From a virus: a stretch of DNA of 64,000 bases. The first letter of the stretch is position 1, and the number at the start of each line of letters is the position of its first letter. Made by a program: the position numbers and the translations under genes. Of the stretch, positions 25,432-63,062 are shown one piece after another. The DNA is taken from positions 62,001 to 126,000 of IMG/VR virus record IMGVR_UViG_3300039183_000005; one strand, given 5' to 3'. Below the pieces are notes generated by a model. That model was not told the DNA's origin and made no database searches. It was given only the letters and a program-made list of their open reading frames with translations.

Positions 25432-26008
25432 AATCACTCCGCATTAATTTAGGTCGTAAATTTTTAATCCTAGAATACCGTTGATTACGACTAAGTTCCA
25501 AATGTTCTAAATTTTCATCAAATTGTGCCTGTAAAAATTCTTTGTCTTCTGACGTAAGATCATCACATAACAAAAGATCATCAAAGACAAAAAATGGCTC
25601 AGATTCGTACGTAGGTTCTTGAAATAACATATGCCAAGGTTCGGTAAAAATAAGTCGGCGTAAATTAGCTAATTTCTCACTGGTGATATTCAATTCTTGA
25701 CATATCTCCTGTTCTGTCTTGCCTTCAGCCAATAATATTTCCAATTGATGAACTTTCTTTTTGATTCTACGTGGCGCAGATATAGTATACATAGCATCTA
25801 ATGCTGCATTTCTCATTGTATTTGCTATTGCTATAATTGCATATGCCTTTAAATTACGATGTTTTTGTTTCTTGCCACGAATCGTTGCTAATGTTAAATG
25901 CCCTATCTGTATGTAATCTTCTTCATTAGCGCAATTACTGGAATAAATAGCAGCAATTCTTTTTGCTAAGCAAACTATGAATTTATCTAAAGACTGCCAT
26001 CTTCCCAT
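25421..26008 (-). CDS. Sigma-70-like RNA polymerase sigma factor or related regulator (195 aa)
   Basis: Residues of about 27-72 read NEEDYIQIGHLTLATIRGK followed by NLKAYAIIAIANTMRNAALDA, matching sigma region 2 (the 'DLxQEGxLAL...F..YA...I...I' pattern). Residues near 88-125 (KVHQLEILLAEGKTEQEICQEL followed by NITSEKLANLRRLI) resemble a region 3/4 helix-turn-helix. The C-terminus (LTSEDKEFLQAQF, NQRYSRIKNLRPKL) could be a degenerate region 4. It is diverged, so an anti-sigma or transcription adaptor role is possible. It lies between SSB and the intein-bearing glycosyltransferase in the P4 unit. A second sigma-like protein is at 56668-57174. Confidence 0.6.
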   Translation of the reverse strand: MGRWQSLDKFIVCLAKRIAAIYSSNCANEEDYIQIGHLTLATIRGKKQKHRNLKAYAIIAIANTMRNAALDAMYTISAPRRIKKKVHQLEILLAEGKTEQEICQELNITSEKLANLRRLIFTEPWHMLFQEPTYESEPFFVFDDLLLCDDLTSEDKEFLQAQFDENLEHLELSRNQRYSRIKNLRPKLMRSDYGV

Positions 26009-26021
26009 TAATGTTCATTTC

Positions 26022-26438
26022 TTAAAACGGAATATCATCATTATCGACAGGAGGCGGCGCTGACATAGTATTAGTAGTTGACGATTTTGATTCGCCAGAT
26101 TTCTTCTTTCCATTCTTTTCGCACAATTGAAAATCTCGAATAGTTACGGAATATGCTACTCGCTTCTGACCATCCTTTTCCCATGAATCCTGCTTCATAT
26201 ATCCGCATACATAAATCGGCTGACCCTTCTTAACCAACTCCATCATTTTTTCAGCACGAGTACCCCAAACTTGAGCGCGTAAAAAACATGCCTCCTGTTG
26301 CCATTTTTGATCCCTATCCTGATAACTCCGATTGAATGCCAAATTAACGGTACACACAGATGTCCCATTCTGTCCAACACTTCTTAGTTCTGGGTCTGCC
26401 GTTGCGACACCCACACCAAATACACCTAATTCTGCCAT
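26022..26438 (-). CDS. ssb: Single-stranded DNA-binding protein (138 aa)
   Basis: The OB-fold motifs of bacterial SSB are clear: VATADPELRS, TVNLAFNRSY, FLRAQVWGTRAEKMMELVKKG, YVCGYMKQDSWEKDGQKR and VTIRDFQLC. The low-complexity Ser/Thr linker leads to the acidic tip DNDDIPF, which in SSB proteins recruits polymerase, primase and repair partners. AAAGGATAAA precedes ATG 26438. It is the first gene after promoter P4 and coats ssDNA at the phage replication fork. Confidence 0.95.
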   Translation of the reverse strand: MAELGVFGVGVATADPELRSVGQNGTSVCTVNLAFNRSYQDRDQKWQQEACFLRAQVWGTRAEKMMELVKKGQPIYVCGYMKQDSWEKDGQKRVAYSVTIRDFQLCEKNGKKKSGESKSSTTNTMSAPPPVDNDDIPF

Positions 26439-26478: not shown

Positions 26479-26507
26479 ATTATACGTTAAAGTCTAATAT
26501 TTGTTTC
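26479..26507 (-). promoter_or_regulatory. Promoter P4 (GAAACA - 17 - TATAAT) for ssb unit
   Basis: Read on the minus strand: TTTTAT, GAAACA (26507-26502), 17-base spacer, TATAAT (26484-26479). Transcription should start near 26472, leaving a leader of about 34 bases with an AAAGGA site before ssb. Identical layout recurs at P1, P2 and P3. The 75-base gap it occupies holds no gene. Confidence 0.7.
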
Positions 26508-26513
26508 ATAAAA

Positions 26514-28361
26514 TTACATTAATTTTTGCATGTCGCGAATTATAAAGCTACCATTTTTTTTCTCTCCGTAGATTAAACATATCAGATCATCCTTACAAAA
26601 TGCTTTTAGTCGCCCAAACGCATCGGGAAATACCACAGCATGATCAATCGAATATGTAGAATCGGATATAGTCAAAAAACACATGGGTTGCCCTGGATTA
26701 CTACCTCTCTTTGTTTTCGTATGTTTTACTCTATCTATAATGGCACAAACCACAATAGATTCGTTATTCGGAGCTTTAGCTATTTCTAAACAAGTATGAG
26801 TTGCTAGACTATCATCCGCATCATCTGCTGGTGAACATGATAAAGCTATTCCTAAGAAATGTTTCTCTGCTGTTGCATTCGCGGCATTACTATCTTCTAT
26901 TGGATTTTCCAGCATAGCCGCTTTCGCTGCTATTATTTTTCGCCTGTTATCGCTTGCGCATGGAGGTTTAACAACATCGTCTCGGTAGCCATTTTCAAGC
27001 ATTAATTCTTCTATTTTTTTCTTAGTCCTACTACCTATTCCGTCTAGCCATGTCTTCTTCTCAGCTAAAGATGTGCATACAAATTTACTATCTCCATCCC
27101 TAATGCCGTCAAATGCCGAATCAGCTTGATCTAAGTAATTAACTGCGGCGGTTACAAGTTCTTTTTTTGTCATTTGGCTCAAAGTTTTTGTTTTACTTCC
27201 TGGCGGTTGGGCCATTTGATTTAAGATTTCTTGTGTTGACATTTCGCCCTGTTTTAATTGCTCAAAAAAATAAATTTTCTCTTTATTTGTTAGGCCCTTA
27301 ATTTCTATTTTTTTACCAGTTGAATCGTGTCCGGTGGTGCCAAGAATAACTTCTAATTCTCGAACCATTTCACTACGACCCATATTATAACAATCGCAAG
27401 CGCCAGCTTTAATTAGTGCTATACCAACATTGCGATGAAAGTCTGGAACTGCTGACAAAAAATTGGCCCAAGTATCTAGAGAGTCCTTTCCTGACGTTTC
27501 TGAGGCCGCTGTGACAATCTTTTGAATAGCAGATGTCCCAACACCCCTAATATGCGCTAGGCCGAAAGCAACGCCATTTTGTGGTTTTGGAGTCATCTGA
27601 AAATGAATGTTTCCACGTCGAATATCAGGTGGAAGAATTTCCACTCCAAATAATCTTGCGTCCTGTACTAATTTATAAATTTCTTCTTTTGGATCACCCT
27701 TGTATTGTGAATAGGTAAGATAGCTGGTGAAAAATTCTTGTGGAAAGTGACATTTAATCCAAGCCGTTTGATAAGCTATAAATGCATAAGATACAGCATG
27801 ACTTTTATTGAATGAATATCGTTGACACTTTTCTATCCATCCAAAAATTTCTTCTGCAATACCACGAGCAATTTTACTATGCTTTTGAGCCCCATTGACA
27901 AATCTATTTTTAAGTTTCGCCATAAGTTCCGGCTTCTTTTTGCCTATGGCTTTTCTTAATTCGTCAGCAACTTCAAGACTAAATCCAGCAATATCTGTAG
28001 CAATTTTGATCGCCTGTTCTTGATAAACGAGACAACCATATGTAGACTCAAGAATCGGCTTTAAGGATTGATGTAGATATACGTGTTTTTTCCTTCCAAA
28101 TTTAATGTCTACATAATCTTGAGTCATCGAACTTTCAAGGGGTCCAGGTCTTAAGAGAGCAGTTAATGCGGCAAGTTCTTCTATATTTTGTGGTTTTACT
28201 TTCTTAGCCCAATCTTGACCTAGATTTTTTTCAAGTTGAAAAACTCCAACGGTATGGCCACCACCAATTAACCGCCATACAGCGGGGCAATCCAGGGGAA
28301 TATCGTTTACACTAAATTTACCTTTCTCGACCTTGCATTTGCAATTTGTAAATTCGATCAT
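26514..28361 (-). CDS. dnaE: DNA polymerase III alpha, C-terminal piece of a split DnaE (615 aa)
   Basis: The chain starts where full-length DnaE passes from the palm into the fingers: NDIPLDCPAVW, then HTVGVFQLEKNLG, LTALLRPGPLESSM, YGCLVYQEQAIKIA and the long KSHAVSYAFIAYQTAWIKCHFP helix. A helix-hairpin-helix region and an OB-like domain (VVCAIIDRVKHTKTKRG...FLTISDSTYSIDHAVVFP) complete the C-terminus. The catalytic aspartates are not here but in the partner at 36629-38971. No intein sequence exists at either end, so the halves must associate as separate chains. It has its own promoter, P3, only five bases before ATG 28361, and no Shine-Dalgarno sequence on that transcript. Confidence 0.9.
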   Translation of the reverse strand: MIEFTNCKCKVEKGKFSVNDIPLDCPAVWRLIGGGHTVGVFQLEKNLGQDWAKKVKPQNIEELAALTALLRPGPLESSMTQDYVDIKFGRKKHVYLHQSLKPILESTYGCLVYQEQAIKIATDIAGFSLEVADELRKAIGKKKPELMAKLKNRFVNGAQKHSKIARGIAEEIFGWIEKCQRYSFNKSHAVSYAFIAYQTAWIKCHFPQEFFTSYLTYSQYKGDPKEEIYKLVQDARLFGVEILPPDIRRGNIHFQMTPKPQNGVAFGLAHIRGVGTSAIQKIVTAASETSGKDSLDTWANFLSAVPDFHRNVGIALIKAGACDCYNMGRSEMVRELEVILGTTGHDSTGKKIEIKGLTNKEKIYFFEQLKQGEMSTQEILNQMAQPPGSKTKTLSQMTKKELVTAAVNYLDQADSAFDGIRDGDSKFVCTSLAEKKTWLDGIGSRTKKKIEELMLENGYRDDVVKPPCASDNRRKIIAAKAAMLENPIEDSNAANATAEKHFLGIALSCSPADDADDSLATHTCLEIAKAPNNESIVVCAIIDRVKHTKTKRGSNPGQPMCFLTISDSTYSIDHAVVFPDAFGRLKAFCKDDLICLIYGEKKNGSFIIRDMQKLM

Positions 28362-28366
28362 ACCAT

Positions 28367-28395
28367 ATTATACCTCTAAATTCACCTGCTGTTCC
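28367..28395 (-). promoter_or_regulatory. Promoter P3 (GGAACA - 17 - TATAAT) for the DnaE C-terminal piece
   Basis: Minus strand: TTTAT, GGAACA (28395-28390), 17 bases, TATAAT (28372-28367). The -10 box ends five bases before ATG 28361, so the transcript would begin at or next to the start codon (leaderless). An AGAGG lies upstream of the -10 box and would be present only on read-through transcripts. Confidence 0.7.
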
Positions 28396-28401
28396 ATAAA
28401 G

Positions 28402-29229
28402 TTAAAAATTTTCGTATGCCAGAGCAATAGTCTTTAATATGCCTCCAATCTTTGGCGATAGGACCGATAACTGATAAAACAACGGTGTTTGCACAGCAGC
28501 TAAGATTTCTGGCTTATGAATTCGATAACCTCTGGCACCTTGAAGTCCTTTGATTCCACCACATTCAGCTAAACGAATATGTGTACCGTGATGGTTTGAC
28601 GTTGCGAGAGATGGCCAATATGTATCGGATAGATTGCCTGGTGGTTCTCCAAGGTCAGATTCTATAATTATTCGTAATAGTAGCTGTTCGTTAAAACCCT
28701 GTTCTGGAAAATCTATTGAACCATCTTTAAGCCTTGAACGATATTTATTTATTAGTGGCCTAATAGCTTCGAACCATTCTTTTGGCTTAATCACATGAAT
28801 TCCACCAAGTCGTCTAGGTCCGGCCTGTAGTGGACGAATAAAATTACTATATGGGATTCCCAACTCATTACAATGTGCAAGATGTTGATCCATATATGAT
28901 GGAATCTCTCGGTAAATTGCCATATCAACATCGCCGATGGACATACAATCATACTGATCGAATGATGGTTCATACACGAGCCATCGCAAGCATTTGATTG
29001 TATTAGCATCTGTATGTGTATATTCAGGAAATGCTCGTTCTCGAATTTCGAAATTGCCAGACAGCAAAGTGAGCATTTGGCGAATATTGTCCATCAAGTT
29101 TTCGTCAAGCAAAATTAATTTATGTGCCTTCGGATATGCTCGATTGAGGAAGTATAGGAACCACGGTATATATTTTTGGTATGGTTTATTAGCAACGGTC
29201 ATAAAACACATTCTACTTTCGTCAGCCAT
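28402..29229 (-). CDS. Putative GT-A glycosyltransferase (275 aa)
   Basis: The N-terminus (CFMTVANKPYQKYIPWFLYF, HKLILLDENL) is a nucleotide-binding strand-helix pair. DCMSIGDVDMAIYREIPSY contains the DxD metal-binding motif, and RLGGIHVIKPKEWF resembles the conserved strand after the acceptor site in GT8-like enzymes. It shares a TAATG overlap with the DxD-type transferase upstream. It is the last gene of the glycan cassette before promoter P3. The sugar donor and acceptor are unknown. Confidence 0.55.
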   Translation of the reverse strand: MADESRMCFMTVANKPYQKYIPWFLYFLNRAYPKAHKLILLDENLMDNIRQMLTLLSGNFEIRERAFPEYTHTDANTIKCLRWLVYEPSFDQYDCMSIGDVDMAIYREIPSYMDQHLAHCNELGIPYSNFIRPLQAGPRRLGGIHVIKPKEWFEAIRPLINKYRSRLKDGSIDFPEQGFNEQLLLRIIIESDLGEPPGNLSDTYWPSLATSNHHGTHIRLAECGGIKGLQGARGYRIHKPEILAAVQTPLFYQLSVLSPKIGGILKTIALAYENF

Positions 29230-29975
29230 TAAATATTCATTGCCTTTCTAAAAATTTGTCCAATCAAAGTCGAAGAGTTCAACAATTGTTGTTCGGTCAT
29301 ATTAAGTATTGGACTGCGAGTCTGTTTAAACATTTGATGATATAACATAAATCCATATACTTCTTGTGTAGAATACTTATCAAGGCATTCTATCCCGTCA
29401 AATAAATATGCATTCCAGGAGGCAATGGGCATAATCATTTTACAGTCAAGGTGATGATACTTCTGTCCTCTGACGGCATGACGAATTACCGCTGGGCCGA
29501 GACTGCCCCACTGAAAGACATGACCTTCTGGATGAAGCTCCAACATATGATCTATATACGCCGCCGCTTTTGTGATTATCTTTCCCTTTGGTTCAGACAC
29601 CAATAAGCCACTTTCTGGCTCTCCATATTTGAGTGATGGAGATGCTGTTGCTATCAAATCTATCCCATCCCTCAATAGTTCAAACATTGGAAAAAGACTT
29701 TTGAATAGAACCAAGTCGGAATCTAGCCAGATGCCACCATGCTCTGCTAAAAGATGGTATCTTAAATAATTCGATTTATTGTTAATTTGCGCAATTTTGA
29801 AGAAACTATCTGGTATATTTGGTAGGAATTGCTTTACATTTTCTGGGGTAACCAAATAAATATCAAAATCATTCCCACAGTGTTTAGATATTATCTTCCA
29901 GCAAAGCTGGACATATGCCGGAGGTTCTGATTGTCCTGGTGGGTTTTCCCAAAATAGCCATATTGCATTTTGCAT
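29229..29975 (-). CDS. DXD-type sugar transferase (Gly_transf_sug/GT32-like, 248 aa)
   Basis: The N-terminus (AIWLFWENPPGQSEPPAYVQ) and the motif NNKSNYLRYHLLAEHGGIW followed by LDSDLVL are the hallmark of the 'sugar-binding region containing DXD motif' family, which includes capsule and mannosyl transferases. The DxD is LDSDL. Downstream, GSLGPAVIRHAV fits the conserved 'tGP...t' segment. The expected role is to add a hexose or similar sugar within a surface-type glycan. Confidence 0.8.
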   Translation of the reverse strand: MQNAIWLFWENPPGQSEPPAYVQLCWKIISKHCGNDFDIYLVTPENVKQFLPNIPDSFFKIAQINNKSNYLRYHLLAEHGGIWLDSDLVLFKSLFPMFELLRDGIDLIATASPSLKYGEPESGLLVSEPKGKIITKAAAYIDHMLELHPEGHVFQWGSLGPAVIRHAVRGQKYHHLDCKMIMPIASWNAYLFDGIECLDKYSTQEVYGFMLYHQMFKQTRSPILNMTEQQLLNSSTLIGQIFRKAMNI

Positions 29976-29987
29976 TACATATTCCCT

Positions 29988-30563
29988 TTATCTTAATACT
30001 GATGGTAATAACATGTGTCGATAGTCTCCAGCATAAATATGTAGATTGCTAATGCCTTCGGCCTTTAGTCGTTCTCGCAATTCATCTTCTTGATGTTTTG
30101 CTGTAGGAGATTTTCTAACATCGAAATCTATTAACACAGCTTTTACCTTATTGTATTCTCCAGAATCGAGTAGATTCGTGACAATAGAACATTCACTTCC
30201 TTCGCAATTCAATTTCAAAAATACTTCATCTTCTTTTGATATATTATTTCTAAACCACTCTGAAGCTTCAACAAAATAACACAAGTCATCTTTCTTCTGT
30301 GGATTACAGGTTGTTTGGTAATCATCCCAAATCGTTCCACCTTGTGAACCAGAGTTATGCAGTATCATATCGCACGTTTTAGAGAACAGCCCAAAGCCGC
30401 AAACTGTTACTTTCGGATTATTGTCAAATTTTCGGTGCAATATTTTTAGACATACAGGAGATGGTTCAAAAGTAAATATATGATCTATTTTAAATCGTGG
30501 TTGCAACAATAATTCCACTGTTTGCCCTTCGTGCCCTCCGACATCAAGGAATATTCGACTCAT
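29988..30563 (-). CDS. FkbM-family methyltransferase (191 aa)
   Basis: ATG 30563 (MSRIFLDVGGHEGQT) is chosen because GGAGG lies 7-8 bases upstream; a longer in-frame start at 30590 lacks one. LDVGGHEGQTVELLL is the SAM loop, IFTFEPSPVCLKIL the acidic motif, and VFLKLNCEGSECSIV the FkbM signature (KxDxEGxE, here with Asn replacing Asp). FkbM enzymes methylate hydroxyl groups of sugars and natural products, fitting the cassette. Confidence 0.75.
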   Translation of the reverse strand: MSRIFLDVGGHEGQTVELLLQPRFKIDHIFTFEPSPVCLKILHRKFDNNPKVTVCGFGLFSKTCDMILHNSGSQGGTIWDDYQTTCNPQKKDDLCYFVEASEWFRNNISKEDEVFLKLNCEGSECSIVTNLLDSGEYNKVKAVLIDFDVRKSPTAKHQEDELRERLKAEGISNLHIYAGDYRHMLLPSVLR

Positions 30564-31407
30564 GCCATTTCCTCCAATCCGTATAAACAAAACGAGCTAA
30601 AAAAACATCGTCATGTATATGAAATGCAAATTTTAATTTGGGCAATAAGCCCGTGACTTTAAGTTGCTTAAAAGCAAATTCATGATTTGACGGCACACCC
30701 TGCCTAAGAAAAGTTTCTATGTTTTTATATAAGTTACCGAATTTATCCATAATTTCAGAACCACCAAAAAACCAATAATCGGCCAGTGCTTGATAATGTG
30801 GGTTATGTGGGTATCCGATATGGGTATGATGAAGTGTCGGATCATTTTTCTTATTCCATCCGTGGAAAAACCAATCTTCGTGTCTAATGCCTTGTCCGTT
30901 TGGCATCTTCATTACACACCAATTTGATGCATAAAAATTATTTGGATCAAATTGATCGAAATGCACGTCTGTAAGCCAAGCTACATCAAATCGTCCGATC
31001 ATAACCATATCATATTTGAATCCATGCTGTTGTTCATAATTTCGCTTAAGCTTCATGCACTGATAAATACTATACCATCTAGCAATCGTAATCTGCGTTT
31101 TGGAGGTAACGCCATCGGGATAATCCTTATCGACCATACCTCCTTTAATGTTAAATTTTGGATCATGTTCAAACATAGCGTCTTTTGGATTATATGCCTC
31201 TATTAGCGATTGTTTTACTTCGATACTTGGCGTGTGCATAAATACGTCTATATCGTTATGGGCGAACAGATGCTTTTTGTAGTGTTCAAAACCCCTTTCC
31301 CACTCAACGGGCGTTCTCTTTCCTGTCTTGCCATTCCACATTTGGCCACCCACAACCTTTTTGCCGGGGTGTGAAGCCATACCGTTTAAACATAGTGCTA
31401 TTTTCAA
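30544..31407 (-). CDS. Putative glycosyltransferase or glycan-modifying protein (287 aa)
   Basis: It starts at TTG 31407, five bases after AGGAGG and overlapping the previous stop. MKIALCLNGMA opens like a nucleotide-binding strand, DIDVFMHTPS and YDMVMIGRFDVAWL resemble the R(F/P)D-containing motif of a group of poorly characterised capsule-locus transferases. C-terminal HIHDDVFLARF may be the acceptor-side motif. Assignment depends mainly on context. Confidence 0.45.
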   Translation of the reverse strand: MKIALCLNGMASHPGKKVVGGQMWNGKTGKRTPVEWERGFEHYKKHLFAHNDIDVFMHTPSIEVKQSLIEAYNPKDAMFEHDPKFNIKGGMVDKDYPDGVTSKTQITIARWYSIYQCMKLKRNYEQQHGFKYDMVMIGRFDVAWLTDVHFDQFDPNNFYASNWCVMKMPNGQGIRHEDWFFHGWNKKNDPTLHHTHIGYPHNPHYQALADYWFFGGSEIMDKFGNLYKNIETFLRQGVPSNHEFAFKQLKVTGLLPKLKFAFHIHDDVFLARFVYTDWRKWHESNIP

Positions 31408-32120
31408 AACAACCTCCTTGCTGTTCCTATTCCATAATCTGGGAATTTTTCATTAATCATTTTGTCATTCACTAATTGTTTGTTGAACAAAGTTTCATCA
31501 ATTGCATCAAATACTGCTTTCGGACCTATGTGAATATTTGTATCACGCATAATAACAGTACCGAATGGTGATAAAAATTCCGTGAAACACCAATCATTGA
31601 TAGTCATTTCTATTGAATGATCACCATCAATCATAAGCAAATCTATTGTTGACATTCCAAGTTTTAACATATATTCCCGTATTCTATGTCTGAATTTGGA
31701 ATCAATAGTTATGGTGTATATGTTTTGGGCTGGATTGTTTATAGCAGAATTATCATTTATGTCGACACCAAGATACACGCAATTACAATGTTTTTCTTCT
31801 AATATGGCTCTGGTTGTTGACAATAATGGTTCTTGATATACATTTATTCCAATTTCCAATATATTTTTAGTTGATGGTAGCACTAAACTTCTTATTAGAT
31901 CGGTATGAACTTTTCTTACAGATGGTCCGTTGTGAACTAGAGGTATATTTGGTTCTATATTCGATTCAATGCACATTGGTAATCCAAAACCCTCCCCAAC
32001 ACGTGTAAACATTCTTTGCTCTTTATCGGAATACTCTGGTTCTATTGTTGGACAATATTTTAGACCATGAATTATAGATGGTTTTCTTTTCCAGTTTCGC
32101 ATCATATCTTTTTCTGACAT
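31404..32120 (-). CDS. Class I SAM-dependent methyltransferase (238 aa)
   Basis: STKNILEIGINVYQEPLLS is the SAM-binding loop in a variant form, CVYLGVDIND the following acidic strand, and STIDLLMIDGDHSIEMTIND carries the D-G-D-H motif typical of CmcI/Methyltransf_24-type enzymes that act on sugars or small molecules. GTVIMRDTNIH is the next strand. GGAGTAAAA precedes ATG 32120. It ends overlapping the next gene by 4 bases. Confidence 0.7.
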   Translation of the reverse strand: MSEKDMMRNWKRKPSIIHGLKYCPTIEPEYSDKEQRMFTRVGEGFGLPMCIESNIEPNIPLVHNGPSVRKVHTDLIRSLVLPSTKNILEIGINVYQEPLLSTTRAILEEKHCNCVYLGVDINDNSAINNPAQNIYTITIDSKFRHRIREYMLKLGMSTIDLLMIDGDHSIEMTINDWCFTEFLSPFGTVIMRDTNIHIGPKAVFDAIDETLFNKQLVNDKMINEKFPDYGIGTARRLF

Positions 32121-32122
32121 TT

Positions 32123-32689
32123 TTACTCCAATACTTTAAATATCTTACGTTCTTCTCCGGATGTAGTCATATCTACAAAAGAAACTACTTCACACTTTCT
32201 ATTGAATTTAGATACCCATTCGTTAAATGCCTTTTCTTCGTGATCATTAAATTCTGGATCATGTTTATAGAACCATTCATCAAAAACAATAATAGTTCCA
32301 TTTACAATGTAATCATTTAAAGTCCACAGTACTTCTTTCGCAGAACTGTAAATGTCTGAGTCAATATGTAATAATGCAATCGGCTGTGCAGTTTTCAAAT
32401 ATTCAGGTAATGTATCGGAAAACCATCCAACATAGAATTTTACACCGTCTATTTGTGGTACCTCGCCATCTGTAGAAAAATATCCAGGTGGCACAACTTC
32501 CTTTCCGTTTTTGTCAATCCATGGTTCTGGCAGACCAGCGAAAGAATCGAATCCAAACACCAGAAACGAATTATCTAGCGTCTGCCTTATGGTGCGAATA
32601 GTATCGCCCCTACAAACACCGAATTCTAAAACGTGTTTATATCGATCGTTTAATAGTGTGAGTCCATATTGCAAGCTAGAATATTTCAC
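32123..32689 (-). CDS. TylF/MycF-like sugar O-methyltransferase (188 aa)
   Basis: GTG 32689 is chosen because GAAAGG stands 7 bases upstream; a TTG at 32716 lacks a site. KHVLEFGVCRGDTIRTI is the SAM loop, VFGFDSFAGLPEPW the TylF signature (FDSFxGLP), and IALLHIDSDIYSSAKEVL the metal-binding D-x-D region of the family. TylF/MycF enzymes are metal-dependent O-methyltransferases of deoxysugars, here probably decorating a phage-made or host glycan. Confidence 0.8.
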   Translation of the reverse strand: MKYSSLQYGLTLLNDRYKHVLEFGVCRGDTIRTIRQTLDNSFLVFGFDSFAGLPEPWIDKNGKEVVPPGYFSTDGEVPQIDGVKFYVGWFSDTLPEYLKTAQPIALLHIDSDIYSSAKEVLWTLNDYIVNGTIIVFDEWFYKHDPEFNDHEEKAFNEWVSKFNRKCEVVSFVDMTTSGEERKIFKVLE

Positions 32690-33344
32690 GACAAGACCTT
32701 TCTTTATAGATATCAAATACTTTACTAAAATTAGCTAAAAATTCTTGATCTTCAGTTGAAACATCAAACGGTTTATTATTGGGCGGATGCCAGCCAACTG
32801 TTTTTGTTATTGTAAACGATGATTTTCTTTTCCATCCGAGTCGTTGTTGAACCTTATCAAGAATAACTTCTTGGTCTTTTCGCATTTGTTCATAGGTTAT
32901 GGTCAAATCTGCATACGACAACCAAAACATATTTGTTAACAACCATAATTCTGGTGGCGTTGCGAGTTGGTCCTGTATCCAACTTCTTCTTGGTTGAGAT
33001 ACTATTTTGTCATCAAAATAAATTTTGCAATCACCTGTTATTCTAGGCATTTTTCTATATGGCGTTCTTATAAAATCTGAAAAATTATTTAATTTAATAC
33101 CATTTCGTTCTCTCATTCTAAATACAGACATTAAAACGTGTTGGATATTGCGGCTACAATGAAATATATATGCTCGTCTAAATTTTTCTCGTATCTCGGT
33201 ATCAAATTTATGTCCACCAAACATATCCATATACTTTTTATATGGAGTGACGAAATTGTCAAATATAGTTTTTAGTACCCAATGTGTTCCGCTTCTTGGA
33301 TGTGTAACCAGTCGCAATCTGTCTTTCTTAAATTTTGGCTTCAT
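32676..33344 (-). CDS. Sulfotransferase-like protein (222 aa)
   Basis: LVTHPRSGTHWVLKTI matches the 5' phosphosulfate-binding loop of PAPS-dependent sulfotransferases (P-(K/R)-S-G-T-x-W). FHCSRNIQHVLMSVFRM corresponds to the 3' phosphate-binding segment (R-x(3)-D-x(3)-S, with the central residue changed). The overall length fits small bacterial and phage sulfotransferases. Expected reaction: transfer of sulfate from PAPS to a glycan hydroxyl. GAGG precedes ATG 33344. Confidence 0.75.
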   Translation of the reverse strand: MKPKFKKDRLRLVTHPRSGTHWVLKTIFDNFVTPYKKYMDMFGGHKFDTEIREKFRRAYIFHCSRNIQHVLMSVFRMRERNGIKLNNFSDFIRTPYRKMPRITGDCKIYFDDKIVSQPRRSWIQDQLATPPELWLLTNMFWLSYADLTITYEQMRKDQEVILDKVQQRLGWKRKSSFTITKTVGWHPPNNKPFDVSTEDQEFLANFSKVFDIYKERSCREIF

Positions 33345-34905
33345 TATTAACCTCTAAAAGATTCATTAACATCAATTTTCCCAAATGAAACAACATATCG
33401 GCATATGGCTGGTGATGCAGTACTGCTATATTTAAATAAATCAAAGCAGTTAAAACTTCTACTTTATGAAAATCATAGTGATTTTTTATGAGATATTTAC
33501 GAAACCAGGCTTCGCAATCAATAAGCGTTTGTCGCCTAAGTAGATCAAAATTAACTATATTACCATCTACATTAGCTTTATATAAACCATTGCGTATGAT
33601 ACCATGCGCAACAATTAGACCATGCCGCAATTTGGCCAGATCATAGTATATATCTCCGTAACCTATAAGACCACCAAAATTTTGTCGCCAGTCTAGCAGC
33701 TTAAAATCATTACCAGTATCTATTGTATTTTCAAAATGTAAATCACCGTGAAATCTTACTGGAATACCTTCCGATATCCATTTCCAGTTTACGCTATTGA
33801 GTAATTCTTTTATTGGTGGAACAACAACACTATTAATACATTGTGATGAATCTCTGCGACAAAATCGTTCAAAATATTCCCGTACTCGCCGAAATGTTTT
33901 GTCTTGATAAAATTTACGGTAGATTTCTCTTACTTCGACGGTAAGAAGTTGTCGATCTTCCCATAAACCTTCCAACCATTCTAAAAAGTCTTTAAATCTA
34001 GATAAAGTAATAGTGTCAGATAATACTTTACCATTTACTTTTCTATAACAATACATATTTTGTGTACTGTTTTCTATCTGTGGAATATATCCATTTAAAG
34101 ATAATTTAGCTCGCTGTACTCTTTGTGCTATAAATTTTTTATCAGTAGAAAATTTAATAACACGATTATTACAAAACCAAATATGTTCTTGTGTTTTTGG
34201 TAAGATATTTGGATCATCTTCTTTGCTAAATATTTTATTAGCACAATTCAACGCTTCAACAGTACCGGTGTCATACCACGTAAATTTTATTCCATGTACG
34301 GGTTGATTTTTTATCATTAACGCTAATGCAAATGATTCTCCCTGATTGATTGTTCCTTCTTCTAGTGCTTGGTCCATAGCAATCCAAAATGTTCTATAAT
34401 CATTGATACCACAAACGCCAACATATGCTTTTGCTTCTGTGTGGTCCCCCTTTTCCCCTATGTTTTTAATTATGGTATTATCCCAAGAATCAACAACGAC
34501 TGAACGATAATCATTGCCAGCTCGAATATCTGCATAGCCTATCCAATCACAATCGGGCGGTGGAACATCTTCTGTCACAATAGCATCGTTGGTAAAAAAG
34601 ATAAATGGACATTGCAATATATCTTTATAATTACATAAATCCGCCGTAAGACCCTTTCTCTTAGCCCAAACAAAAGTAAAATTGCGATCAGGATAAGCTA
34701 ATGTGAGAAATTCTTTTACCAATTCCCCTTTGTGTCCTAAGTCGATAATGATTTCTATATCCTTAGGAAACTTTTCTATAATATATGAAATAATGGGGCG
34801 ATTGGCAACTGGAACCAATGTTTTGTTCACATGGTCACAATGATTACCAAGCCTAGAGCCTACACCGGCAGTTGGTATTAATACTTTATATTTATTTGCG
34901 TCCAT
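33328..34905 (-). CDS. Bifunctional sugar nucleotidyltransferase - APH/choline kinase-like fusion (525 aa)
   Basis: Residues of about 6-235 are a nucleotidyltransferase: KVLIPTAGVGSRLGNHCDHV with the G-x-G-(S/T)-R-L loop, NKTLVPVANRPIISYII, and FFTNDAIV as the metal-binding strand. Residues of about 250-520 are a phosphotransferase: VRFHGDLHFENTIDTG contains the catalytic HGDLHxxN, and KLLDWRQNFGG the metal-binding D. A sugar-activating pair in one chain (phosphorylation, then NTP coupling) is inferred. Of three in-frame starts (GTG 34920, ATG 34911, ATG 34905), the last is closest to the domain; none has a strong site. Confidence 0.8.
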   Translation of the reverse strand: MDANKYKVLIPTAGVGSRLGNHCDHVNKTLVPVANRPIISYIIEKFPKDIEIIIDLGHKGELVKEFLTLAYPDRNFTFVWAKRKGLTADLCNYKDILQCPFIFFTNDAIVTEDVPPPDCDWIGYADIRAGNDYRSVVVDSWDNTIIKNIGEKGDHTEAKAYVGVCGINDYRTFWIAMDQALEEGTINQGESFALALMIKNQPVHGIKFTWYDTGTVEALNCANKIFSKEDDPNILPKTQEHIWFCNNRVIKFSTDKKFIAQRVQRAKLSLNGYIPQIENSTQNMYCYRKVNGKVLSDTITLSRFKDFLEWLEGLWEDRQLLTVEVREIYRKFYQDKTFRRVREYFERFCRRDSSQCINSVVVPPIKELLNSVNWKWISEGIPVRFHGDLHFENTIDTGNDFKLLDWRQNFGGLIGYGDIYYDLAKLRHGLIVAHGIIRNGLYKANVDGNIVNFDLLRRQTLIDCEAWFRKYLIKNHYDFHKVEVLTALIYLNIAVLHHQPYADMLFHLGKLMLMNLLEVNNEAKI

Positions 34906-35239
34906 AATCATCTTTAACACGAACTACATCGTCCAATTCTGGAGTCGATGTCTCTAGATATATTACGTCAGTTATTCCTTCCATACGATGTGTTCTACCA
35001 GGAACAATAGTATGGCAATCTCCAGGATTTAAAACTATATCTTCCCAAGTTGAATCCGAACCTTCAAAATTTGTGGTGAATAATAATGTACCACTTATTA
35101 CCAAAATTGTTTCCCTTTTTTGTTCGTGATATTGTAAACTACAGCGATTTCCAGCTTTCATAAATAGTCGTTTTACAACGTACTTATCGTTAACTTCTAA
35201 AATTTCTTCATAACCCCATGGCTTTTCTATTCTTTTCAT
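34892..35239 (-). CDS. Cupin protein, mannose-6-phosphate isomerase type II-like (115 aa)
   Basis: MKRIEKPWGYEEIL is the standard opening of phosphomannose isomerase-type cupins (W-G). AGNRCSLQYHEQKRETILVISG is cupin motif 1 (H-x-H/E replaced by YHEQKRE, G), and LNPGDCHTIVPGRTHRM motif 2 with the metal-binding His. It likely isomerises or epimerises a phosphorylated sugar in the pathway that feeds the nucleotidyltransferase-kinase, whose gene it overlaps by 14 bases. Confidence 0.75.
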   Translation of the reverse strand: MKRIEKPWGYEEILEVNDKYVVKRLFMKAGNRCSLQYHEQKRETILVISGTLLFTTNFEGSDSTWEDIVLNPGDCHTIVPGRTHRMEGITDVIYLETSTPELDDVVRVKDDYGRK

Positions 35240-35243
35240 ATTA

Positions 35244-36284
35244 TTATCCTAACGCAAATAAATAATGTTCAATTACCTTGCTTATCTCATTAACTATATT
35301 TTCCTTGATATTAATTTTTTTAGCCAATTTTTCAACTAACTCCTGATATGTTGACCCATTAAAATGGTAATGACCAGCAATAAGTGTAAATAACATCCAC
35401 TGCGGATTAGTCGAAAACCAGTCTACATTAAATCCGCGAACAACAGCAATGCGTGATTGATCAACCCATTTGCGCCATCGATCACCATTCATGACTTCTG
35501 AAACAAATTTCCGTGTGTCAATACCATAAATCAGAGCTTGCGACAATACATAGTTTGTTTGTACAACACCGAGCTGTGGCGCTATATTAACTGCATCAAC
35601 AACTCCCTTTCTCCAATTTATATCTTCTGTACTTAGGTAATCTGCATTATGTTCCTTTAATTTCACATTAAGGGTTTTTAATTCATAATGTATTATGCCA
35701 GTATGATACACTTTGAAGTTGCTAGTATTATGAATTTCTCGCACTAGGCTTCCAGTTTGCACGACATAAAAGAGAGGGTTAGCCACTTGCTGACACGTTT
35801 TAACGTCTGAAACAATTTTGTCCACATCTGTTTCTGTCACGCCGATATTTTCATCTGTACCAATTTCAAACATTACATCTGATTTAATTCCAATAGCAAA
35901 TTTCATCAATTCTTGGGTATGCCGTAATTTTTCTTCGTGCGATACTTTCATGTGGCATAAGTCAATATGAATCAAATCGAATCCATTTTCTAGGTCGTTT
36001 CGTATAGTTTCTCTTGTCGCATCTAAATTGTATTCTGGTTCCAATCCAAAACCTGGACCACAATGATCGCGACAGATCATAATTTTTGCTTTTCGATATT
36101 TTCTGCGCATTTTGGCTACATATTCAACATATTCTTTTGTGGTAAAAACATATCCATTTTTTGCATTGACTTGATTGCGAGAACAAATTAGCATTAATGG
36201 TTGCTTAAATTTATGAGAATACCTAAAAACAGCTTCAACAACTTCTTTACTCATCGGTCCACAGGCTAACTTAGATATTGACAT
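35244..36284 (-). CDS. GatZ/KbaZ-like TIM-barrel protein (346 aa)
   Basis: The N-terminal PLMLICSRNQVNAKNGYVFT and MICRDHCGPGFGLEPEYN correspond to the conserved 'ATSNQVN..GGY' and 'GGDHLGP' motifs of the class II tagatose-bisphosphate aldolase accessory subunit family (GatZ/KbaZ), a sugar-phosphate TIM barrel. FDLIHIDLCHMKVSHEEKL and VMFEIGTDEN provide further barrel strands. The Gly-rich motifs are altered (RDH for GDH), so substrate may differ. It overlaps the HAD gene by 14 bases; the two likely act in one pathway. Confidence 0.7.
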   Translation of the reverse strand: MSISKLACGPMSKEVVEAVFRYSHKFKQPLMLICSRNQVNAKNGYVFTTKEYVEYVAKMRRKYRKAKIMICRDHCGPGFGLEPEYNLDATRETIRNDLENGFDLIHIDLCHMKVSHEEKLRHTQELMKFAIGIKSDVMFEIGTDENIGVTETDVDKIVSDVKTCQQVANPLFYVVQTGSLVREIHNTSNFKVYHTGIIHYELKTLNVKLKEHNADYLSTEDINWRKGVVDAVNIAPQLGVVQTNYVLSQALIYGIDTRKFVSEVMNGDRWRKWVDQSRIAVVRGFNVDWFSTNPQWMLFTLIAGHYHFNGSTYQELVEKLAKKINIKENIVNEISKVIEHYLFALG

Positions 36285-36642
36285 CGGTCATACCCTCATT
36301 TCGTTTCAAGTTAACACATGCCGCTGTTTTCCCTTTACGATCAAGTTTTACGTCATTAATTACCACACGTTGTCCCCGTGGCAGATTCATTATTAAATTA
36401 TGATAATGCAAATCTACCTCATTCAATTGTTGCTCTGTAATCAATCTAAGACTTTCTGGCCGACCAGTTGTTAAGATAATAGTATATCCCTTTCTAATCC
36501 ACTCACAGAATTTGTCCTTTACTCCTGGTAGTACCACTGGTTTTTGGGTCGCTATGGCTAGTTTACCAGGATGGAAAAAAATACAACCATCGATATCGCA
36601 AAAAATTGTTTTGACATGAATTGCATGGTCAATTCGTGACAT
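36271..36642 (-). CDS. HAD-superfamily phosphatase (123 aa)
   Basis: IFCDIDGCIFFH contains the nucleophile D-x-D of HAD phosphatases, TIILTTGRPESLR is motif II (TGR), and VVINDVKLDRKG is the C-terminal acidic motif. Small HAD proteins of this type remove phosphate from sugar phosphates such as KDO-8-P. It overlaps the end of the DnaE N-terminal piece by 14 bases, so the first gene of the glycan cassette is translationally coupled to the polymerase fragment. Confidence 0.8.
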   Translation of the reverse strand: MSRIDHAIHVKTIFCDIDGCIFFHPGKLAIATQKPVVLPGVKDKFCEWIRKGYTIILTTGRPESLRLITEQQLNEVDLHYHNLIMNLPRGQRVVINDVKLDRKGKTAACVNLKRNEGMTDVNI

Positions 36643-38971
36643 TTACAGGCTCCTCGTCAAAAATTTCATTTCCATTATCTTCGTTTATTAAATCCTGAGC
36701 TTTCCAAAGTTTATCCAATGCTGTAACTCCAAGAAGATCAAATTTAACAGCACCCATAGCTTCAGCGCTTGACATTTCTAAACCAACTACACGATCCTTA
36801 TTTTTAACATCATATACTAGTGGAACCAATTCTGCTATTGGTCTATCTGCAATTACAACTCCAGCGGCATGTTTTGATTGAGATTTTTTAGTTCCTTCAA
36901 TTCTCATCGCTTGGTCAAATAATGGTTTATACCATTCGTAGGCGTCCTGAACTTGTTCTACATGATGTATAGCCCACTGTAAAATACCGTAATTATCACC
37001 CTGTTCTTCTCTGGCTTGTCTCAATTCATCTGCTATCGTTGCTTCGTCTGGAATATGCTGTGTAATATCGTTGCATAAATCATGAGGTGTCATATTTACA
37101 TCATCTGGACTTTTCCCTTCTTTCACAGCTTTAACTTTCATAAGACGCTTTACTTCATCAGGATTAGCTCTGAATACCTCTTTGAGTGCTGCCTTTCCCT
37201 GTAGTCGTCCAAATGTAATCATTTGCGCCACATATTCTTCGCCCCATCGCTTTTTGAGATAGGAAATAACTTCACTGCGGAATATAACGCCTATATCTGT
37301 GTCTATGTCTGGGAGGCTAATGTGGCCATCATGGGTTTTAACCTTTTTATTTATATCAAGCTCATTACGTCCAGCTAATGTCAACCCAAGTCCACATGCT
37401 AAGTGAGAATTTGAAAGATTATCGGCAGGTTTTTCTTTGATCATATCGAATAGATACATCCACATACGTGGGTTCTTTTTATCAATCCATTCGACTTCTT
37501 CTCTCATGGTATCTGTAAATTCTACTTTTCCCCATTTTATTCGTCTAGCAAGATGCATGGCCACAGCTTTGCGCTCAGCATCAACATCTCTAGTATGCAA
37601 CATTTCGAAGTTATCAGACATCCACGACATAAAATCAATTGATCCTACATCGAAATGCGGCGGAATATTACGACTTACGTTATAGAATCGTTCAAAGTAA
37701 AGACCATATTCGATTGGATCAATTCCAGTAATCCCTGTCAAATAATTAACTAACGATCCAGCACCAGAGCCACGCCCCTTACCTCTTGGGCCGTTACGGC
37801 TATCAATAAACTTACAAACATCCCAAACAATAAGGAAGTAATCTGCCAGTCCAGCTTCTTGTATAACGATTAATTCTTTTTGTAATCGATCCCAATAGAT
37901 TTTTTTCTGTCTAGAATCTAGATTGGCAAGTTTTGACTTAGCCCCCTCTATACATAAGTACTTAAGGTAGGCGTTGGAATCAAGTCCTAGTTTAGTAGCT
38001 TCTTGATTTGTAAATACTGGTAGATACGGATTGTGTCCAAGCGACGAATATTCTATTCGATCAGCAATATTTAGCGTTGCTTGAAGTTCCGCTTCGGTAA
38101 ATTTTTTGCGCATTTCTTCATATGATGGAATGTAGTAGTTATCTGAAATGAAAAAATCCATTACGTCACCAGTCTGTTGTCTCCTTCTTTCTTGATCTTC
38201 CTTAGTTGTGTGGAGCTGTGCGCACAACAATAGTCGTTGATCTTCTGCATCTTCTCTTTTACAATAATGAGCATCAATTGTAGCTACTGTTGGAACTCCT
38301 GTTTCTTTGCTTAATTCCCTTAAGCACTCTACTACTACTGTTTGAATTCCCATCCCCTCATCTTGTAGTTCTAAATAATAGTTGTCTGCCCCGAAAATTG
38401 ATATATGTTTTTGGATAATCGCTTTGCCAACATCTTTCCAGTTTGGTTTAAGATATTTTCTTGCCTCGGAAACGTTGTTGTTATGACCAGCTATAATAGC
38501 GGCTTTAAAATCTACAAACAGAGATGTAGGCAACTCTCCTGCAATACACGCCGTCAGGAAAATAAAATTTCCACGCTTAGCAAACGGAGCAATGCCTTCT
38601 AAGTGTATACGTGGTTTGCGGTAAAAATAGTCCGGCCTGTTCATTTCCGAAACCAAAGCCATCAAATCTTTAATTCCATTATCATTTTTTGCTAGAATAA
38701 TAAGATGATATCTTTTGTTGTTTTCTGTTGTTTTGATATCGGCTTCCAGTGGACAAATATATGCTTCTATTCCAATAATTGGTTTAATTTTTTTCTTTTT
38801 TGCTGCGTCGTAAAATGCTTTCATACCGGCAATCGATCCATGATCTGTCAGCGCACATTCCGGCAGACCTAATTCTACGCATCGATTTACGATATCTTTT
38901 GGGGATGGTACTCCATCAAGAAGGCTATAGTACGAATGAAGGTGGAGTGGAATATATACAGTTTGACTCAT
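36629..38971 (-). CDS. dnaE: DNA polymerase III alpha, N-terminal piece of a split DnaE (780 aa)
   Basis: ATG 38971 is preferred to ATG 38974 because AGGAG stands 5 bases before it. Residues 7-250 are the PHP domain (HLHSYYSLLDG, LTDHGSIAG, IDAHY). The palm starts with RGKGRGSGAGSLVNYL and holds catalytic Asp at LPDIDTDIG and in GAVKFDLLGV, so all three active-site aspartates are on this piece. An extra ~120-residue segment lies between YFERFYN and LPDID, where ordinary DnaE continues without a gap. The chain ends in an acidic tail 14 bases inside the HAD gene. The missing fingers and C-terminal domains are encoded 8.3 kb downstream (26514-28361). Confidence 0.92.
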   Translation of the reverse strand: MSQTVYIPLHLHSYYSLLDGVPSPKDIVNRCVELGLPECALTDHGSIAGMKAFYDAAKKKKIKPIIGIEAYICPLEADIKTTENNKRYHLIILAKNDNGIKDLMALVSEMNRPDYFYRKPRIHLEGIAPFAKRGNFIFLTACIAGELPTSLFVDFKAAIIAGHNNNVSEARKYLKPNWKDVGKAIIQKHISIFGADNYYLELQDEGMGIQTVVVECLRELSKETGVPTVATIDAHYCKREDAEDQRLLLCAQLHTTKEDQERRRQQTGDVMDFFISDNYYIPSYEEMRKKFTEAELQATLNIADRIEYSSLGHNPYLPVFTNQEATKLGLDSNAYLKYLCIEGAKSKLANLDSRQKKIYWDRLQKELIVIQEAGLADYFLIVWDVCKFIDSRNGPRGKGRGSGAGSLVNYLTGITGIDPIEYGLYFERFYNVSRNIPPHFDVGSIDFMSWMSDNFEMLHTRDVDAERKAVAMHLARRIKWGKVEFTDTMREEVEWIDKKNPRMWMYLFDMIKEKPADNLSNSHLACGLGLTLAGRNELDINKKVKTHDGHISLPDIDTDIGVIFRSEVISYLKKRWGEEYVAQMITFGRLQGKAALKEVFRANPDEVKRLMKVKAVKEGKSPDDVNMTPHDLCNDITQHIPDEATIADELRQAREEQGDNYGILQWAIHHVEQVQDAYEWYKPLFDQAMRIEGTKKSQSKHAAGVVIADRPIAELVPLVYDVKNKDRVVGLEMSSAEAMGAVKFDLLGVTALDKLWKAQDLINEDNGNEIFDEEPVNVTN

Positions 38972-39680
38972 CATCTCTCCTTATGTGTTTGATGTTTTTT
39001 TATACGATCTATGGTGACAATATGTACGTTGAACAGTTTAGCAATTTCTTTTGAAGAAACTTGTTTTTTAATCAATAATCTAATTTCCGTCAAATCATCT
39101 GTTGTTAATTTAGAACTACCAATATTAATACGATTTTTAATTGATAATCCATGAGTTAAATGTTTCCACAATCTCCCATTTTCAATATTTGATATTGTTG
39201 ATTGACTTACATTGAATTGTTTTGCTATTTGATGTTGAGGCATACCATTCGCTACAAGTTTCAGAATCTCTATTACATGTTTTTCATGAAGTTTAGAATT
39301 ACCATTTTTTGGCCACGACTTATATCTGGATTATTAGAAAACCAATGGTTACCATCCTTTATCATATCTTGCATATTATTTTGATGAGTATCCCATCTTA
39401 AATTCTCTATTGAATTATTTTCAGAATTACCATCATTGTGACAAACTTCCATATTATTTACACGAGGCCCAACAAAAGCTAATAATATCAACTGATGAAC
39501 ATAAAATTTTGTTTTAATTTTATTTTTCCACAATGAAACCATTAATCTATATTTATTTCCATTTTTGTTTTTCCATGGTTTTAATATTTTATTGCGTAAT
39601 ATGCTTTTTATTCTACCAGAATTAGAAGCTTGATACAATCCTTCATACCCAGGAATATCTTTCCATTGTTCTTTATCCAT
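38971..39680 (-). pseudogene. HNH homing endonuclease broken by a frameshift
   Basis: 39680-39273 reads a NUMOD4-HNH endonuclease: WKDIPGYEGLYQASNSGRIKS, then HQLILLAFVGPRVNNMEVCHND and NSIENLRWDTHQNN. At a run of six T (39305-39310 on the plus strand) the frame is lost, giving a short wrong tail. In the -1 frame the sequence continues NGNSKLHEKHVIEILKLV and joins, without a stop, a 90-residue stretch with two helix-turn-helix units (HQIAKQFNVSQSTISNIENG and SSKEIAKLFNVHIVTIDRIK). The whole equals the layout of the intact gene at 50774-51277 with an extra unit. Either a real one-base indel or a homopolymer error in the assembly. It lies directly before dnaE. Confidence 0.75.
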
Positions 39681-49045: not shown

Positions 49046-49074
49046 ATTATACCTCCAAATAACTATTTTGTTTC
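49046..49074 (-). promoter_or_regulatory. Promoter P2 (GAAACA - 17 - TATAAT) for the replication unit
   Basis: Minus strand: TTTTTAT, GAAACA (49074-49069), 17 bases, TATAAT (49051-49046). Spacing equals that of P1, P3 and P4. The first gene would be transcribed leaderless or nearly so. It governs the zinc-ribbon, recombination and replisome genes down to at least dnaE. Confidence 0.7.
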
Positions 49075-49089
49075 ATAAAAATCTTTTTT

Positions 49090-50773: not shown

Positions 50774-51277
50774 TTATCCTTTGCAATATCGCCACGATCT
50801 TCCACATTTAATATCGGAGATAGTCATTCGAGCAACACCAAAAATATCAGCAATTTGTCTCTGTAATAAATTGCCTTTTAGCAATAATTCTTTTATTTGC
50901 ATAACTTGTTTTGTTGTTAATTTTGATTTTCCATTTCTTTGACCCCTATTTGTTCTCTTGTGTCGTATTTTATCTCGCTCATTATCACGGCGTGTTCCCC
51001 AAGTTAAATTATCGACATAATTATTTTGCTTATCTCCGTCCAAATGTCGTACTTCATAATTGGCTGTTGGTGGGAAGCCGATAAAAGCAAAAGCTACTAA
51101 ACGGTGTATTCTACAATATTTTCTGTTGTTATTAGCTCTTAGGTCTACTAAACAATATCCGTTTGATATACGCGGTTTTAATATTTTTCCAGTTTGTATC
51201 CTTTTCACATGACCGATATTAGATACTTCATAATAATTTTCGTATCCAATGATTGGTTTCCAAATTTCTCTATTCAT
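50774..51277 (-). CDS. NUMOD4-HNH homing endonuclease (167 aa)
   Basis: IWKPIIGYENYYEVSNIGHVK is the NUMOD4 DNA-binding motif; IHRLVAFAFIGFPP and YEVRHLDGDKQNNYVDNLTW give the HNH core (H-L-D...N...N-L); the C-terminal KLTTKQVMQIKELLLKG and QRQIADIFGVARMTISDIK form a helix-turn-helix. All parts are intact. It is the intact counterpart of the frameshifted gene at 38971-39680. It sits between the phosphoesterase and the mini zinc-finger gene. Confidence 0.88.
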   Translation of the reverse strand: MNREIWKPIIGYENYYEVSNIGHVKRIQTGKILKPRISNGYCLVDLRANNNRKYCRIHRLVAFAFIGFPPTANYEVRHLDGDKQNNYVDNLTWGTRRDNERDKIRHKRTNRGQRNGKSKLTTKQVMQIKELLLKGNLLQRQIADIFGVARMTISDIKCGRSWRYCKG

Positions 51278-61614: not shown

Positions 61615-63062
61615 TTAATTTGATACTCCAGTTTAATACCACGAAACTCTCCGGGAGAAATTATCGCCAATTGATCTAATACTCTTTGTCTTAGACTAAC
61701 GGCAATATCCAAAACAGTTTTCAACTCATTTGGTTTAATTGTATCAACTCTCCTGTGCGGAAATATTAACTTTAACAATCCCGATCCTATTCGAATAAGT
61801 GATCTCTGATCTCTTTGACCCATTTGGCCAAAATTAACGTTTTGTAATATTACGTTGGCATAATTACGTTTTCTCATTCTATGCATTACTTCCGATATAT
61901 AATCAGCCATAAATCCAAAATCTTTTGCAAAATTAACTTCCCTAATTGGCCCAATGCGCCATCCAGGAACAAATCCGTGTATCCGATCAAGAAACGCCCT
62001 ATCTTGACTGACTATTTGAGGAAACGGAGAAAATAGATTTCGATATCTTGCGGTAACTTCTCTTTTTTCTCTATTGCAATCAATATTACCAACAAAAGTA
62101 ATGCTGCAATCAGATGCAAATTCGGCAGTTCCTCTACCAAACCTACCGCTATTCATAAAATCTTTCAATAAATCTATTAAATCTCCTTGTCCAGACCATT
62201 TATTGCCACCACGACTATTGGCAAATTCGTCGAAAGCAACAACATCTCGGTATCCTATTAATCCCAACCTATTACGAAGTTTATCGTAAAACAAAGAAGC
62301 AATGGTAGTTTGAGACCCAGAAATAACAAATCCGTAAGAGCTTAATGATTGATAGGCAAATGTCTTTCCAGTCATCGTAGGGCCTAGTTCAACCATATTC
62401 ACATTAGATTCAATAAAAGGAATCATCCTTACCATATACAACCATTTTTCTTCTTCAGAAAGATTGGTTGGATCAAACCCGATACTCGTTATCATTAAGT
62501 TGAGCCATTCTTCGTCTGAAAATTGTTCTCGACGCTTAATCCATATATCCACATTGATATCGGTTATTTGTATTGGTTTAAATTCGGTCAACAAAAACGG
62601 ATACAGTTTTTTCCTCATAACATAAGATTCGTCGTATACTATTTTAAAGATACCCCATGCTCCACTTGTTAATAACGTATCTCCGTATTCTACGATGAGG
62701 TGTGGATTGATGCGAACATACTGATTCCCTAGCGCCGTGACATCTACCCAATATTCATCCTTGCCTTCATCAAATCGACAACGGATACGACCAATCAGGG
62801 TGTACTCCCCCTGCTCCCTGATTCTGCTCTTAACCAATTCCTTTTTGTCAGACTCCATGAAATGCGCATCGAGAAGTTGGCTGATTTTTTCCATGCCAGG
62901 AGTGGGGTTTTCAGGGTTGACAGCTTCCGAAATCAAATAGTCGACCACGAAACTTGGGAGCTTACGAAATTGTTCGTTAAGACAGCCCAAACTTTTGTCT
63001 ATTATGATCCCGTGTTCAGGGAAAACCTCAGAAGCCTTTTGTTTCGCTGTAGTGACTGTCAT
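61611..63062 (-). CDS. BrxL-like AAA+ ATPase lacking the Lon protease domain (483 aa)
   Basis: The N-terminal region (PSFVVDYLISEAVN, ELVKSRIREQGEYTLIGRI) and the centre (SGAWGIFKIVY, FKPIQITDINVDIWIKRREQ, FSDEEWLNLMITSIGFDP) follow the BREX protein BrxL in order. The AAA+ core has Walker A GPTMTGKT (227-234) after NMVEL, ISGSQTTIASLFYDKL, Walker B VVAFDEF (Asp278, Glu279) and a sensor strand ITFVGNID. BrxL proteins continue into a Lon-like C-terminal domain; this one stops at the RQRVLDQL...F..I junction, so that domain is absent. GAGGTG precedes ATG 63062. No other BREX gene is nearby. Role unknown: anti-BREX decoy, exclusion factor or DNA translocase. Confidence 0.8.
   Translation of the reverse strand: MTVTTAKQKASEVFPEHGIIIDKSLGCLNEQFRKLPSFVVDYLISEAVNPENPTPGMEKISQLLDAHFMESDKKELVKSRIREQGEYTLIGRIRCRFDEGKDEYWVDVTALGNQYVRINPHLIVEYGDTLLTSGAWGIFKIVYDESYVMRKKLYPFLLTEFKPIQITDINVDIWIKRREQFSDEEWLNLMITSIGFDPTNLSEEEKWLYMVRMIPFIESNVNMVELGPTMTGKTFAYQSLSSYGFVISGSQTTIASLFYDKLRNRLGLIGYRDVVAFDEFANSRGGNKWSGQGDLIDLLKDFMNSGRFGRGTAEFASDCSITFVGNIDCNREKREVTARYRNLFSPFPQIVSQDRAFLDRIHGFVPGWRIGPIREVNFAKDFGFMADYISEVMHRMRKRNYANVILQNVNFGQMGQRDQRSLIRIGSGLLKLIFPHRRVDTIKPNELKTVLDIAVSLRQRVLDQLAIISPGEFRGIKLEYQIK

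Follow-up and report, generated by a model that had tools for sequence, protein, structure and literature searches.

C-family replicases are, to our knowledge, single chains in nearly all known cases. In cyanobacteria, DnaE, the alpha subunit of DNA polymerase III (PolIII-alpha), is encoded by two separate genes whose products are joined by a split intein. Split PolIII-alpha is already known from phages, namely the group 2.2 jumbo phages and the Microbacterium cluster EF phages, and Rossellomorea phage phiT1 (PV767480) has been deposited with the same break as the one described here. The subject of this analysis is a DnaE encoded by two genes, dnaE-N and dnaE-C, in the 168-kb virus record IMGVR_UViG_3300039183_000005 of IMG/VR, of which we analysed a stretch of 64,000 nucleotides (positions 62,001–126,000 of the record), hereafter the window. 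With a probability of roughly 0.88, the replicative polymerase of this phage is a bacterial-type DnaE made of two separately folding chains that assemble non-covalently in trans.

For the group 2.2 jumbo phages, PMC7824862 describes a PolIII-alpha catalytic module made of two proteins from distant genes, for which reconstitution was proposed. As described there, the module is a minimal core that lacks PHP and further domains and stands alongside a family B replicase, whereas the window gene has a PHP domain and no PolB match accompanies it. The jumbo-phage split, given there as NTP-binding versus Mg/template-binding parts, resembles by that description a second (N1|N2) break seen in the related loci L026 and L145 rather than that of the window. 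The Microbacterium EF phages (PMC7302621) and Bacillus phage Jayan, like the window, carry two DnaE genes in one phage, but in both cases the genes are adjacent, and the break lies near the PHP/palm border in the former and just before the catalytic Asp pair in the latter. In phiT1, gp20 and gp18 form a DnaE broken at the homologous position with no intein seen, the N part ending in DQINQGVAV and the C part starting with MFDILDIPLDD ahead of GVFQLE; unlike in the window, only a 49-codon open reading frame (ORF; gp19) separates the halves, and the CxC head described below is absent. The cyanobacterial gene differs in its split-intein joining and in the position of its break. Among other enzymes, the Methanothermobacter split PolB is likewise a replicative polymerase of two polypeptides, though of family B and archaeal (as cited in PMC7776575), and Aeh1 NrdA and T4 topoisomerase gene 60 are coding regions divided by endonuclease insertion into two reassembling chains (PMC2988022), with the endonuclease, unlike in the window, still in the gap.

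The two genes of the window are the following:

36629..38974, minus strand: dnaE-N, 781 amino acids, PHP domain and palm with all three catalytic Asp
26514..28361, minus strand: dnaE-C, 615 amino acids, head MIxFxxCxCxV, fingers (GVFQLE, RPGPLE), HhH and a C-terminal OB-type fold

Together they amount to 1,396 residues, with 8,267 bp between the two ORFs in place of the one polypeptide of C-family PolIII-alpha. Pfam assigns PHP and DNA_pol3_alpha to dnaE-N and DNA_pol3_finger and HHH_6 to dnaE-C, the OB fold of which was assigned from structure prediction alone. The predicted structures of the halves (predicted local distance difference test, pLDDT, 85.2 and 88.5) each match PolIII-alpha structures, and along with the Pfam and NCBIfam matches and the invariant Asp they show the domains of a bacterial DnaE across the two chains. 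The catalytic Asp of dnaE-N are residues 556 and 558 (in LPDIDTD) and 746 (in VKFDLLG), all three invariant, and the candidate PHP metal ligands H11, H13, H45, E70, H90, C143, D234 and H236 are invariant within the window clade, which we take to be compatible with an active PHP site. An earlier note, written from the letters of the window, had described a DnaE divided into two genes 8.3 kb apart, which the ORFs, Pfam domains, and profile and structure matches confirm; it had placed the first gene at 36629–38971, of which the end holds, but the start codon lies at 38974 and 38971 is the next Met.

When the joined sequence was aligned with full-length DnaE, as that note had proposed, the halves abutted. 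Against Taq PolIII-alpha, dnaE-N reaches residue 647 and dnaE-C starts at 643; against E. coli alpha, dnaE-C starts at residue 583, and its alignment to the TIGR00594 profile starts at position 574 of 1022. When the joined halves are aligned with undivided DnaE of phages and bacteria, the break falls into a region of variable sequence that follows the helix after KFDxLG and precedes the IPLD...GVFQLE block; the undivided enzymes have a short linker there. The claim that nothing was duplicated or lost is thus right for the core, in which the matches abut, but not for the ends, since about 13 residues of dnaE-N tail and about 14 of dnaE-C head are surplus compared with unsplit enzymes. The tail (residues 769–781) is predicted to be disordered (pLDDT about 31). 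Within its last codons lies GAGGAG (36650..36655, minus strand), the putative ribosome-binding site of the next gene, which starts at ATG 36642 and overlaps the dnaE-N end, and this site may account for the acidity of the tail. The head carries in the window clade a conserved MIxFxxCxCxVExGxF with two invariant Cys; the CxC pair (residues 7 and 9) is invariant there and is accompanied by a third Cys at residue 25. A metal site or a docking element is a possible role of these Cys.

The break is shared by many contigs. IMG/VR searches with each half gave 20 records, both halves being present in 18 of them and always as separate ORFs; the other two hold one half only, one being a contig that begins near the C-half and the other an 11-kb contig. 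Profile searches added further loci, including two contigs of bacterial metagenome-assembled genomes (MAGs). All loci were then scanned to see whether their palm and finger matches fall into a single reading frame or into two, and the scan showed the break in roughly 30 contigs other than that of the window, phiT1 among them (our count is 33, some of them near-copies). It occurs in relatives of the window at 55–84% identity and also in distant relatives. No fused copy was found within the window clade; the remaining, more distant loci have unsplit genes, so that the phages with an undivided gene that the earlier note had wished to see sought do exist. In the comparisons made, synonymous sites were saturated or nearly so and the nonsynonymous rate (dN) was 0.10–0.19 in both halves, which are thus under strong purifying selection.

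The distance between the halves varies widely. Among the outer members, the halves adjoin in L102, where N ends at 12109 and C starts at 12112 (2-bp gap), and are 0.7–2.7 kb apart in the others; in the window clade the gaps range from 1.0 to 18.2 kb and differ in gene content. That the break is clade-wide, that the 8.3-kb spacing is incidental and that other split phage PolIII-alpha are known all go beyond the earlier note. The gap of the window is filled as follows:

28402..36642, minus strand: cargo cassette between the halves, with HAD-like, KbaZ/FBP-aldolase-like, cupin (mannose-6-P isomerase-like), sulfotransferase-like, TylF methyltransferase-like and Caps_synth/DXD glycosyltransferase genes and unassigned ORFs

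Throughout the window clade the gap genes are chiefly sugar and glycan genes, methyltransferases and HNH-type endonuclease ORFs (assigned partly by eye), and phages with similar polymerases carry differing sets of them, indicating high gene turnover. In L103 (12677–13348), L104 (11913–12665), L145 (5110–5811) and L146 (6790–7479) the gap contains a gene for a DnaQ-like exonuclease.

A tree of palm plus fingers with 58 rows contained an all-split clade of 25 rows (support 100/100) and a clade of 29 split rows plus the unsplit L123 (100/99), with phiT1 placed outside the main split clade. The approximately unbiased (AU) test rejected the grouping of all 30 split rows to the exclusion of L123 (p = 0.0014), but neither that of the 29 split rows without phiT1 (p = 0.19) nor that of the split rows with phiT1 and L123 (p = 0.206). 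Therefore two or more origins of the split are needed, or a single one followed by re-fusion in L123.

The earlier note had also given the second half its own promoter, and this is supported by a motif of the phage itself, TGRAACA-N17-TATAAT. It occurs in exactly three copies in the window, before the replication genes, dnaE-C and ssb; the 168-kb record contains 6 exact copies and 12 with at most one mismatch, compared with 0 for the reversed control. A generic sigma-70 scan was discarded as promoter support, as it gave 58 sites versus 62 ± 7 in shuffles, without excess. The relevant features are:

49046..49075, minus strand: motif copy heading the replication genes, 5-nt spacing to the ATG (49040)
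28367..28396, minus strand: dnaE-C promoter, TGGAACA-N17-TATAAT, -10 ending 5 nt before the ATG (28361)
26479..26508, minus strand: exact motif copy before ssb
26022..26438, minus strand: ssb, downstream of dnaE-C

The first of these heads a gene series that leads to dnaE-N by way of recA-like, dnaB, primase and exonuclease genes. At two of the three window sites 5 nt separate the end of the -10 from an ATG, and this spacing is conserved before dnaE-C: of the 16 nearest loci, 14 have TATAAT exactly 5 nt ahead of the dnaE-C ATG (with the window, 15 of 17), the exceptions being L012 with 6 nt and L016 with none, and the distant L104 has TTGACA-N17-TATAAT, 5 nt and ATG. Given this spacing, the dnaE-C transcript is predicted to begin at or within a few nucleotides of the ATG and hence to be leaderless or nearly so. 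An overlapping ribosome-site-like stretch (AGAGG) just upstream of dnaE-C could serve read-through transcripts, and since a scan of the gap found its minus strand free of terminator-like sites, read-through would also be possible. A weak sigma-factor-like ORF beside ssb (25421–26008, minus strand) is a candidate reader of this promoter class.

Some relatives show the gene broken further or interrupted by mobile elements. In L026, L100 and L145 the N-half is broken again between FERFYN...GRN (palm motif 1) and LPDID (the catalytic Asp pair):

L026 10001–12965; L100 697–3980; L145 1942–4935: three-piece polymerase

The second gap holds endonuclease ORFs in each case, of LAGLIDADG type in L145, GIY-YIG and HNH-like in L100, and HNH-like in L026, the HNH-like assignments in L026 and L100 having been made by eye without a Pfam hit. 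Ordinary inteins occur at four sites in relatives (L086, L010, L012, L015, L019 and L021, and contig G013 with three insertions): one in the N-half (G68|C69) and three in the C-half, namely before S77, before a Ser replacing A138, and FNK|SHA. The last had been taken for the cyanobacterial DnaE site, which is wrong, as it lies four residues downstream of it. All these inteins sit inside one half and never at the break. The second breaks with their endonuclease ORFs and the inteins together mark the DnaE gene as a repeated target of mobile elements, so that by analogy the likeliest origin of the split would be homing-endonuclease-type fragmentation of the sort seen in Aeh1 NrdA. As in other genes in pieces, unsplit relatives exist and both pieces have a start and a stop of their own; HNH-type ORFs occur in the gaps of some relatives. 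Near the upstream end of dnaE-N the window contains the following ORF, perhaps a remnant of endonucleases that moved through this locus:

39273..39680, minus strand: NUMOD4-HNH (homing-endonuclease-like) ORF, NUMOD4 and HNH_3 by Pfam

Another ORF at 50774–51277 (minus strand), HNH-type by eye, resembles it, and a glycosyltransferase-like ORF at 22537–25437 (minus strand) contains an intein insertion bearing a LAGLIDADG domain.

Since the window is a single IMG/VR contig, an assembler might have put the cassette between halves that are truly adjacent or fused, a concern that the earlier note had raised. The same break, however, occurs in contigs of many metagenomes with differing gap genes, in the independently sequenced phiT1 and in two bacterial MAGs; the C-half has a conserved start, head and promoter, and the genes have an intact start and stop, the N-tail containing the putative ribosome-binding site for the gene that follows. 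The independent contigs exclude such an error for practical purposes, and its probability is negligible. It is also highly improbable that the chains are joined covalently during or after expression, by a split intein or RNA trans-splicing. The precedent of cyanobacterial DnaE and the inteins of the relatives would favour this, but neither window half has an intein or Hint match in Pfam, in line with the earlier note, which had seen no intein motifs at either end and had set a split intein aside; no IntN follows the N chain and no IntC precedes the C chain, and the head and tail of about 14 and 13 residues are too short. Moreover, no Rfam intron was found in the window, nor at or near the break in L026 or L015, the break differs from the cyanobacterial site, and the inteins of the relatives sit within one half.

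A further possibility, which we consider unlikely though less so than covalent joining, is that the divided gene encodes a polymerase in decay or with a secondary role, its halves acting as a PHP-palm nuclease and a DNA-binding fingers-OB protein while host PolIII or an undetected enzyme replicates the phage. Some jumbo phages do pair a minimal split PolIII-alpha with a family B replicase (PMC7824862), and the 168-kb record contains no detectable clamp match. On the other hand, the catalytic Asp and PHP residues are all conserved, both halves are under strong purifying selection, and they are located beside dnaB, primase, recA-like and ssb genes. The 168-kb record has a single NTPase/palm match (two pieces of one gene) and a single finger match; palm and finger searches found no second DnaE in it, so that the full-length second dnaE that the earlier note had named as speaking against its claim did not appear, and neither a family A or B polymerase nor a DnaQ was detected there.

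The reading of a two-chain DnaE assembling in trans draws on the anatomy, the conserved break, the purifying selection, the promoter motif and the lack of any other polymerase detectable in the record, all of which are observed. Several points weigh against it. The record is a linear metagenome contig and may be incomplete; the AU rejection requires two origins or one re-fusion; and the 8.3-kb gap of the window itself contains no endonuclease ORF or other homing-endonuclease inserting element, so that an endonuclease origin of its break would hold by analogy. Assembly in trans, activity and the route of origin are what we infer. The assembly that the earlier note had asserted as a necessity fits this evidence, and judging from the sequences the two pieces very probably must find each other to form a working replicase. 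The N chain, with PHP and palm and the whole catalytic triad, and the C chain, with fingers, HhH and OB, would each fold alone, the break lying past the third catalytic Asp and ahead of the fingers, in a linker of variable sequence that could tolerate extra residues. The former would be expressed from the replication-gene promoter at 49046–49075, also the source of any read-through, and the latter from 28367–28396; as these are promoters of the same class, supply could be matched despite the 8.3-kb distance. The ancestral gene may have been split once or twice by homing-endonuclease-type fragmentation with the halves adjacent at first, after which the junction may have become a neutral landing site within the replication region where cargo gathered. 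A wider proposal, to which we would give slightly less than an even chance, is that all phages of the clade depend for replication on a DnaE made obligately of several chains and have no other polymerase. In L026, L100 and the MAG contig L145 this enzyme would work as three pieces (PHP-palm1, palm with catalytic Asp, fingers-OB), with homing endonucleases still cutting it up and the first break serving as a recombination site for cargo.

As far as the literature was searched, what is new here is a complete PHP-to-OB DnaE, the sole polymerase detected, whose catalytic core is broken clade-wide in large uncultured phages, with a conserved promoter of its own for the second half, variable spacing and three-piece relatives. 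Such a clade-wide natural break shows that the palm and the fingers probably need not belong to one chain in order to come together, and the break, used in phiT1 too, offers a ready split site for two-part assays. The series from adjacent halves to halves 18 kb apart, in two- and three-piece forms, lets fragmentation by mobile endonucleases be traced in an essential enzyme.

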